Shown piece after piece: positions 44,903 through 52,988 of a DNA stretch of 64,000 nucleotides. Where the stretch lies: contig NZ_CP102509.1 in NCBI RefSeq assembly GCF_024611995.1, positions 5,828,001 through 5,892,000 of the forward strand, read 5' to 3'. The notes beneath the pieces are model-generated. The model ran no database searches. It saw nothing but the letters and a program-made list of their open reading frames with translations, and was not told the origin of the DNA. Origin of the DNA: Streptomyces sp. NBC_00162. Lineage in GTDB: Bacteria > Actinomycetota > Actinomycetes > Streptomycetales > Streptomycetaceae. Numbering within the stretch: position 1 is the first letter of the stretch; each line of letters starts with the position of its first letter. A program made the translations under genes and the position numbers.

Positions 44903-44977
44903 GGGTGTGTAGCTCAGGGGTAGAGCGCTGCTCTTACAAAGCAGATGTCGGCGGTTCGAAACCGTCCACGCCCACCA
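44903..44977 (+). tRNA. tRNA-Val (anticodon TAC)
   Basis: A 75-nt cloverleaf: acceptor GGGTGTG paired with CACGCCC, D-arm GTAGCTCAGGGGTAGAGC, anticodon arm CTGCT-CTTACAA-AGCAG giving TAC, and T-arm GGCGGTTCGAAACCGTC. The CCA end is encoded (44975-44977). It decodes GUA, a rare codon in such GC-rich genomes. Confidence 0.95.
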
Positions 44978-50966: not shown

Positions 50967-51065
50967 GTGTTCAGCTTCGGCGTCACGGCGATCGCCTTCG
51001 GCGACGTCTTCCTCGCCGAACTCCCCGACAAGACGGCCCTCGCCGGCCTGATGCTCGCTGTACGA
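50967..51065 (+). pseudogene. truncated GDT1/TMEM165 (UPF0016) transporter gene
   Basis: GTG opens a frame reading FSFGVTAIAFGDVFLAEL then PDKTALAGLMLAV, the family's first helix with the metal-binding ExGD/T-like ELPDKT motif. A real gene continues for about 190 residues and six helices. Here homology stops after about 32 codons and the frame runs into G-rich sequence bordering the palindromic element. The remainder is not found beyond the element, so the gene is a 5' remnant. These transporters export Mn2+ or Ca2+. Confidence 0.75.
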
Positions 51066-51110
51066 GGCGGTTGGGGGGTGGGGGGGGGTGTGGCGGGGCT
51101 TCGGGGGGCA

Positions 51111-52142
51111 GGTGGGGGCTTCGGGGGTCGGGGTCTCGGCGGGGCGGGATCAGGGAGGGTTTGGGGTTTCCCGTCAGTCCCACTGTCTCCCCGGGTCGGG
51201 CCGGTCTGTAAAGGGCGCTCCTCCTTCGTCGTCGCGTCGCTTCGCGATGGCCTTCGGCCACCCTTGACAGACCGTCCCGCCCCGGAAAGACAGGACTGTC
51301 GGGAAGCCCCCAAAAGAACGGTCCACCGGTTCCATGGACGGGCGGGGGCCATCAGCGACCGGCTCCCGGGTTCCGTGCGGCAGGGTTCGCGCCCGGGCCC
51401 GTAGAGAGCGGATGGCGGGGTCGGCGGGCGCGTCAGATCGCTACACACTTCTCACCCATGGCGTCCGGCGCCCGTCTGGGGCTGGGCATAAGCCGCCCAC
51501 GGCCGGCACACGCGTCTCGATCACGCGACTGCGGGTCGTTTGTCCGTATTTGGCGGCGAGTTGAGAGCCAATCGATCTTTTCCCGGAGTGAGGGACCCAA
51601 AAGTCCGGCACCACACTCCGTCAGAGCACTTTCCGTGCCCGCGACCGCCCGCAGACGCCCTCCAGGAGCGTCAACTGGCGGTCTGGGGCGGCTTATGTCC
51701 AGCCCATGCCGGTCTGATCGCCGCCAGACCACCTCAGGCGGCAGCGGCCAGTGGGCGGCCTATTCCCAGCCCCAGACGGCCCGCAGCCGCCAGACAATGA
51801 GCAAGTGTGTAGCGATCTGATGCGCCCACCGGCCCCGGATTCCCTCCCGATCGGCCCGGGCGCATGCCCGCCCACGGCAGCCAAGCAGCCGGTCCCTGAT
51901 GTCCCCCGGTCTGAATCGTGAACCGGTGGACCGTTCTTTTGGGGGCTTCCCGACAGTCCTGTCTTTCCGGGGCGGGACGGTCTGTCAAGGGTGGCCGAAG
52001 GCCATCGCGAAGCGACGCGACGACGAAGGAGGAGCGCCCTTTACAGACCGGCCCGACCCGGGGAGACAGTGGGACTGACGGGAAACCCCCAAACCCTCCC
52101 TGATCCCGCCCCGCTGAGACCCCGACCCCCGAAGCCCCCACC
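51111..52142. repeat. 1.03-kb hierarchical palindrome
   Basis: Outer arms 51111-51332 and 51920-52142 are complementary with only a few differences. Pairing continues inward, weaker (about 65-75%), to about 51500/51753: for instance CAGATCGCTACACACTT at 51434 and its complement at 51804. About 250 unpaired bases form the centre. Each outer arm is itself an inverted repeat: 51161-51215 pairs with 51263-51316, and their counterparts lie at 51936-51989 and 52037-52093. No frame has Streptomyces codon bias. It abuts the truncated GDT1 gene and ends 18 bp from the HAD gene stop. Origin and function unknown. Confidence 0.9.
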
Positions 52143-52159
52143 CGCCCTTACGCCCCCGC

Positions 52160-52843
52160 CTACGCCCCCGCTTCGACCGTGACCCGGATCGAGCCGTCAG
52201 GGGTCGTGGTCACCCGGAGGGTCGTGAGGTCCGGGGCGTGGGTCGTCGGGTTGTGGGCGGCCGCGCGGGGGCCGATGCCGATCACGCGCATGCCCGCGGC
52301 CTGGCCGGCGGCGATGCCTGCGGCCGAGTCCTCGAAGACGATGCAGTCGGCCGGGTCCATGCCCAGCGCGGCGGCGCCCTTGAGGAAGCCCTCCGGGTCG
52401 GGCTTGCTGGCCTGGACGGACTCGGCGGTGACACGTACCGCCGGCATCGGCAGGGCCGCCGCGGTCATCCTGGCCGTGGCCAGGGGCGCGTCGGCGGAAG
52501 TGACCAGGGCGTGCGGCAGTTCGGCGATCGACGCCATGAACTCCGGGGCACCCGCGACCGGGACCACGCCGTCGGTGTCGGCCGTCTCGCGGGCCAGCAT
52601 CACGGCGTTCTCCGCGAGATTGACCTCCATCGGGCGGTCCGGCAGCAGGACGGCCATGGTCGCGTAGCCCTGGCGGCCGTGGACCACCTTGAGGGCCTCC
52701 TGCGGGTCCAGCCCGTGTGACACCGCCCAGTCGCGCCAGCACCGCTCGACCGCCGCGTCGGAGTTGACGAGGGTGCCGTCCATGTCCAGGAGCAGGGCCT
52801 TGGCGGTGAGGACGACAGGTGCGGTGGTGGTGCTGGCCGACAT
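52160..52843 (-). CDS. HAD-family phosphatase (beta-phosphoglucomutase-like)
   Basis: 227 residues. Motif I LLLDMDGTLVNSD (nucleophile Asp, acid/base Asp), motif II LVTSADAP, motif III Lys in SKPDPEGFLKGAA and motif IV IVFEDSAAG. The helical cap between 30 and 95 places it among sugar-phosphate phosphatases (DOG1/GPP-like). ATG 52843 has GGAG 9 nt upstream; the frame extends upstream through the promoter repeats and is not coding there. The stop is next to the giant palindrome. Confidence 0.9.
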   Translation of the reverse strand: MSASTTTAPVVLTAKALLLDMDGTLVNSDAAVERCWRDWAVSHGLDPQEALKVVHGRQGYATMAVLLPDRPMEVNLAENAVMLARETADTDGVVPVAGAPEFMASIAELPHALVTSADAPLATARMTAAALPMPAVRVTAESVQASKPDPEGFLKGAAALGMDPADCIVFEDSAAGIAAGQAAGMRVIGIGPRAAAHNPTTHAPDLTTLRVTTTPDGSIRVTVEAGA

Positions 52844-52878
52844 ATGCGGGGCTCCAGACAAGGCGGGAAAAGAGAACA

Positions 52879-52948
52879 AGTGGTTCCGTCCACCGGTCAG
52901 GGAGTGAGGACGGAACCACTTTGTTCCTCCACGATACAAAATGGTTCC
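52879..52948. promoter_or_regulatory. three alternating TGGTTCCG boxes
   Basis: AGTGGTTCCGTCC (52879-52891) is perfectly complementary to GGACGGAACCACT (52908-52920). GGAACCACTTTGT (52912-52924) is in turn complementary, with one mismatch, to ACAAAATGGTTCC (52936-52948). The middle copy can therefore pair with either side. They lie 36-105 bp upstream of the HAD start codon: either a multi-site operator or an mRNA leader with mutually exclusive hairpins. Confidence 0.75.
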
Positions 52949-52988
52949 GCTCCGCGCCACCGCAGGTGGTGTGACCCCCGTCCCGTCC

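Follow-up and report, generated by a model that had tools for sequence, protein, structure and literature searches.

Paired palindromic arms at shared chromosomal places in Streptomyces: a family of possible gene docking loci

Introduction

Inverted repeats of bacterial genomes have been assigned to several classes. Mobile insertion cassettes (MIC) and MITEs have inverted ends and passenger genes but no transposase, and the REP, BIME and REPIN sequences are intergenic palindromes, which often stand in inverted pairs. The minimal mobile elements (MME) of Neisseria are described as places, bounded by conserved genes, where different gene cassettes are found according to the strain, the cassettes entering by homologous recombination (PMC3082526). 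In Streptomyces ambofaciens, the DNA reported to have been gained at five repaired breaks was endogenous and ranged from 30 bp to 18.8 kb; for the central region of this chromosome, repair was reported to depend on end-joining (PMC5869714).

In this article we analysed a palindrome of about 1 kb in a 64,000-nucleotide stretch of Streptomyces sp. NBC_00162 (contig NZ_CP102509.1, positions 5,828,001 to 5,892,000), referred to below as the window. It belongs to a family of paired palindromic arms which is apparently undescribed so far, as no earlier description of such a family was found in the open-access literature. The family works most like the MME of Neisseria, with different borders: different contents occupy the same position (between species, not strains) and the flanks are conserved, but non-coding arms stand between the flanks and the contents and, unlike in MME, these arms are palindromic, common to many loci and evolve in concert. 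Inverted arms, passenger genes and the lack of a transposase are features in common with MIC and MITEs. The arms, however, are long and contain a hairpin and boxes, no fixed terminal inverted-repeat ends were seen by eye, no related autonomous IS was found among the 37 open reading frames (ORFs) scanned, and the positions are common across species. Compared with REP, BIME and REPIN sequences the elements are far longer, enclose genes and are not consistently accompanied by a Y1 (RAYT-type) transposase. The break-repair insertions described in PMC5869714 likewise consist of endogenous DNA caught at a double-strand break, although the break was there induced at a chosen site, whereas the present family consists of natural, recurrent palindromic loci.

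Results

Anatomy of the palindrome in the window

A nested palindrome at 51111-52142 had been recognized in the preliminary description of this DNA, and its structure was borne out. The outer arms 51157-51332 and 51920-52095 are 99% complementary, and the complementarity of the outermost segments (51106-51172 and 52081-52147) is 94%. The degenerate pairing described further inward was found as well, at 51389-51413/51839-51863 (76%), 51416-51450/51803-51837 (91%) and 51459-51507/51744-51792 (80%). On the window copy each arm proved to be an inverted repeat in itself, as claimed, and the left arm folded into a single long hairpin (z = -3.04 as single-stranded DNA; 1 of 200 dinucleotide shuffles was as good). 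As to the supposed lack of coding capacity, none of the ORFs of at least 80 amino acids in the window element passed the codon-position filter, which in other elements, however, overlooked some genuine genes. The element and its neighbours are composed as follows.

50967..51057, plus strand: remnant of a GDT1-like gene, about 30 codons (91-bp match, 95.6%, to the gene of genome G039; the remainder is missing)
51111..51332, plus strand: outer part of the left arm, with the hairpin at about 51160-51314 and a G-rich outer fringe at 51111-51159
51333..51428, plus strand: left variable spacer, poorly conserved across genomes (27 short elements aligned)
51429..51499, plus strand: left inner box of about 71 nt (E 1e-17 with a profile built iteratively from these same elements; element offsets 319-389)
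51500..51751, no strand: centre, alike in the four short copies of this genome
51686-51715: partial extra box within the centre (same profile, E 3e-4)
51752..51824, minus strand: right inner box (same profile, E 5e-17; element offsets 642-714)
51825..51919, minus strand: right variable spacer
51920..52142, minus strand: outer part of the right arm with its hairpin
52160..52960, minus strand: conserved right neighbour, which we take from its motif to be a HAD-like phosphatase gene (start codon uncertain)

Over the window Rfam gave no family at its cut-off except a tRNA gene (44903-44974), which was the sole such match. Over the element the matches to MIR839, mir-3718 and HOTTIP_3 (twice) lay far below the cut-off and were taken as chance hairpin matches.

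Copies, arms and distribution of the family

Absence of the unit from the rest of the genome, which would have suggested an artefact, was excluded by a search of the same genome: 13 long arm matches were obtained (40 of 60 candidates scored), forming six convergent pairs and one single unpaired arm (L014:2620-2832). Four pairs measure 1026-1032 bp and are 91-95% identical to the window copy across their length; L009 (1666 bp) holds a SnoaL-like gene, and L010 (2469 bp) aldo-keto reductase and TetR genes. Within the genus 68 of 295 genomes (own included) match at E <= 0.001, many of the matches being short, with two candidates scored per genome. Sixteen genomes selected from the strongest have 3 to 50 matches each, numbers which are not arm counts because the arms are palindromic. 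From 67 fetched stretches, 52 with clear arm pairs, from 13 genomes, were analysed, the elements being 0.87-3.9 kb long. All 52 pairs are convergent, having been selected from listings of plus and minus matches. The suggestion of two MITE-like elements inserted head-to-head is not supported in that form, since the convergent pair is the recurrent unit (6/6 pairs in the own genome) and often encloses genes.

The alignment of 27 short elements divided the arm into a fringe rich in G, a conserved hairpin (about 155 bp), a spacer differing in both sequence and length, and a likewise conserved inner box (about 71 bp). On either side of every one of the 52 pairs the inner-box profile, which was built iteratively from these elements, gives between one and eleven hits; the boxes point inward and often stand in tandem, with a repeat spacing of about 63-66 bp. 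The G226 element at the locus orthologous to that of the window (L105:1529-3333) is a tandem array with 14 box matches (3 plus, 11 minus). In a search of 12 genomes, with hits placed in part, boxes away from arms formed no obvious class.

In 14 arms from 13 genomes 95.6% of the hairpin cells are paired. Nine pairs have two-sided changes (mean of 4.2 in shuffles, 1 of 500 as high), and further pair types are not unusual (133 of 500 shuffles). Together with the tandem boxes, the two-sided changes hint that a dedicated protein binds here or that the structure has a function; relatedness, or gene conversion between the hairpin halves, could also account for the changes.

The outer borders differ between copies: judged by eye, similarity beyond the hairpin fades at varying points, and the borders are fuzzy and G-rich where a target-site duplication was sought. 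The earlier view of a repeat element unlike known IS ends agrees with the copies in the genome, the absence of a fixed outer end (by eye) and of a shared transposase in the ORFs examined. Furthermore, no full transposon with the same ends, which would have made the palindrome an ordinary IS remnant, was found.

A 26-mer motif of the element occurs in at least 119 stretches of genome contigs. Among the matches listed, the records with both motif and hairpin are nearly all from Streptomyces, and seven of the eight non-Streptomyces stretches show neither hairpin nor box, so that the motif alone does not indicate the element. Phage records gave no match to the element, and one viral contig carries the 26-mer without a hairpin at E <= 1e-6. 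Five plasmid records match, none spanning 80% of the query. The fetched stretch of the best of them, a Streptomyces plasmid of 277 kb, carries one hairpin with two boxes (L270:6001-6507), flanked by an aminotransferase gene and a GNAT gene.

Loci shared between genomes

Comparison of the flanks all against all placed 34 of the 52 pairs in 13 locus groups together with a pair of another genome. Both flanks match in ten of these groups, and one flank only in L095/L119, L073/L091 and L094/L102. All six pairs of the own genome fall into shared-locus groups, and five of its six loci match hairpin-bearing records of S. lavendulae, S. cirratus, S. xanthophaeus, S. goshikiensis, S. flavotricini, S. 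avidinii, S. virginiae and further strains. Beside the HAD gene of the window the element is also present in G198, G226, G039 and G133. In all three groups with filtered ORFs in two members (L009/L088, L010/L089, L076/L086) the same place holds different ORFs, in each case between species.

Twenty genomes, of which 17 came from the arm list and three were added for aldo-keto reductase matches, were surveyed for arms at three loci, with 1.5 kb per side and synteny checked for part of the stretches. At the window locus arms were found in 5 of the 19 stretches with the HAD gene, G070 giving no ortholog; at the L012 locus in 3 of 20, G198 keeping a half-hairpin scar; and at the L010 locus in 6 of 20, with a lone box in G226. 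Shorter fragments seen only by BLAST in G268 and G042 lack profile support. The elements are thus absent from most genomes at these loci, and independent gain at preferred places may have occurred. In the gap at the L012 locus (L357-L373) several arm-less relatives show a short G+C-rich hairpin, terminator-like by eye.

It had been proposed that the palindrome replaced the 3' part of the GDT1 gene. The gene is indeed cut after about 30 codons, but it was not simply replaced by the element: G133, G198 and G039 have an element beside this HAD gene at the orthologous locus and, beyond the element, a GDT1 frame of full length, and in G226 only the GDT1 start is matched. Because element and full-length gene coexist in three genomes, the loss in the window genome appears to stem from an independent deletion next to the left arm.

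Contents of the arm pairs

Coding ORFs are enclosed by at least 18 of the 52 pairs. The codon-position G+C filter passed 27 ORFs in 17 pairs, and 20 of the 27 match Pfam at E <= 0.001 (two of these under the family cut-off). The families include aldo-keto reductase, TetR, SnoaL, PadR, alpha/beta hydrolase, HAD and NUDIX, and furthermore GDSL, CYTH, GntR/UTRA, NmrA, GNAT, AraC/GyrI, MarR and others. A glycosyltransferase-like gene with an EryCIII-like C-terminal domain, lying between the arms of L103 in G082 (L103:1672-3321), was missed by the filter, and L104 contains a frame with a weak GH88 match below the cut-off; eight other ORFs in the eight longer pairs without filtered ORFs (L103 and L104 included) gave no match. 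The counts of gene-bearing pairs are lower bounds because the ORF filter was too strict.

Among the 37 ORFs scanned from the 52 pairs there was neither an integrase nor a transposase common to the family, and two were transposase-like: an IS3-type fragment (L067) and an NF041680 transposase (L082). The latter (L082:3094-4685) stands inside the element with its own 20-bp inverted ends, and its neighbour ORF has both GDSL and GGACT (gamma-glutamyl cyclotransferase) domains. Similar proteins of 84-91 amino acids (..YVPH.LLR.RVRDI..), which have no Pfam match, occur in three elements of G172 (L080:4711-4986, L084:1878-2132, L085:3583-3837). Between the arms of L099 an AraC/GyrI-type regulator (L099:1895-2758) also matches Pfam Cass2, described there as an integron-associated effector binding protein.

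The comparison of L009 with the default element located the gene precisely: a 716-bp segment replaces 12 bp just inside the left inner box, positions 1-381 and 394-1026 of the default corresponding to 1-382 and 1099-1663 of L009. Identity to the default is 79% in the part of L009 right of the insert, which is about 68 bp shorter than its counterpart; the insertion is therefore not a recent one.

Relatives of the L010 aldo-keto reductase and TetR genes, 83-89% identical, were found at other places in G113, G198, G042, G039, G226, G268, G133, G070, G166, G208 and G077. Of the 24 stretches from other genomes, four of them shortened by contig ends, 22 are free of arms in the flanks fetched; the relatives found in G042 and G249 adjoin an arm but lie outside it, which fits a simple route of capture less well. 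These relatives lie less than 0.3 Mb from an end in the G198 and G268 chromosomes, and their left neighbourhood is common to G198, G226, G268 and G042. For the NmrA gene of L088, relatives (78-81%) were found in G000, G198, G268 and G226, their fetched flanks being free of arms. In the first three of these genomes they stand less than 0.9 Mb from a chromosome end, at places that differ among the three. For the PadR and hydrolase genes of L076 only 66-74% relatives (at least 100 bp) were detected outside G038, with regulator and hydrolase parts mostly at separate places. As far as gene positions can tell, the distributions of the first two sets would fit movement from accessory regions into the arm pairs.

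Concerted evolution of the arms

Hairpin identity was 0.942 between different loci within one genome (n=572 arm pairs), 0.858 at the same locus in different genomes (n=136) and 0.851 at unrelated loci of different genomes (n=4596), comparisons which are not mutually independent; the two arms of one element are 93.5% identical. The excess of within-genome identity over same-locus identity across genomes indicates concerted evolution. G249 is an exception, its arms being 83.1% alike within the genome (n=12). The position of the arms is common across genomes, while their sequence follows the genome.

Discussion

The best explanation, to which as a whole we give about an even chance, is that the window element represents, without contents, the default state of a family of palindromic docking loci at many places, each of them a pair of inverted arms (hairpin and inner box) at an intergenic position common to several species. 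These would be ancestral palindromic loci which are kept alike by gene conversion and are filled by capture of other chromosomal DNA. The element positions would be ancestral, and the palindrome would extrude hairpins in replication and be broken. Repair from another copy would be gene conversion, by which arms and default centres stay alike and contents can be swapped; repair by end-joining could instead catch another chromosomal piece, so that genes would probably be gained during break repair, and might sometimes delete neighbours, as with GDT1 here, or leave a partial-arm scar. In E. coli SbcCD is described as cutting a perfect palindrome, and breaks at an interrupted palindrome as repairable by recombination (PMC4245961, PMC3315005). 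Palindrome breakage and repair would explain the conversion of the arms, the gain of genes with a small deletion, the loss of GDT1 and the partial-arm scar. Passive break repair, however, needs neither a dedicated binding protein nor a functional structure, and the hints of these count against it.

Given that the boxes are repeated and the hairpin is conserved, a dedicated protein may exist, and the elements could then be a non-autonomous transposon family of the MITE or mobile insertion cassette kind. Its inverted ends would be very long, an enzyme binding the boxes or the hairpin would move it in trans, and insertion hot spots would be reused, the enclosed genes being carried along. Inverted arms around variable genes without a transposase and the numerous copies speak for such a family, and the likeness of copies within a genome is also consistent with recent bursts. 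We consider it somewhat unlikely in view of the outer ends, which look unfixed by eye, the many loci shared across genomes and the half-hairpin scar in G198; moreover, the sole full transposase ORF, that of L082, has inverted ends of its own, and Y1 transposases (PF01797) are present in only 5 of 17 arm-bearing genomes. Overall, Y1_Tnp is found in 99 of 295 genomes; a link to the Y1 (RAYT-type) enzymes was rejected.

It is unlikely that selection maintains the arms for an intergenic function, as terminators, insulators or structured RNA, with the enclosed genes being incidental insertions. Of five measures taken on the hairpin in 14 arms, three do exceed all 500 column shuffles and one more exceeds 499 of them, a result that kinship alone can produce, and the short G+C-rich hairpin seen by eye at the L012 locus would suit a structure in this gap. 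Against it, arms are missing from most relatives at the three surveyed loci, the element carries no terminator-like excess (1 versus 0.6 in shuffles), the same scan of one arm-less L012 relative flagged no terminator in the gap, and no Rfam family reached the cut-off. The orientation of adjacent genes also resembles that of controls: among 42 element loci, from which 10 of unclear orientation had been excluded, 27 are tandem, 11 convergent and 4 divergent, versus 45, 21 and 16 of 82 controls, as judged from heuristic ORFs. An assembly artefact or a decayed IS is extremely improbable, because six pairs lie within one two-contig assembly, the arms are non-identical and the family recurs in many other assemblies.

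Taken further, the docking-locus explanation leads to a tentative proposal for the genus, possible but doubtful at present: dispersed palindromic fragile loci may serve Streptomyces as a platform of gene capture and exchange, where hairpin breakage draws accessory genes into the core, contents swap between loci and species by way of the shared arms, and the arms evolve in concert. If true, accessory genes would have a transposase-free entry into the conserved core of a bacterial chromosome. The arms would also show clearly, in a natural setting, that dispersed non-coding DNA of bacteria can evolve in concert, and the family would provide a test bed for palindrome breakage as a driver of gene gain in Streptomyces.
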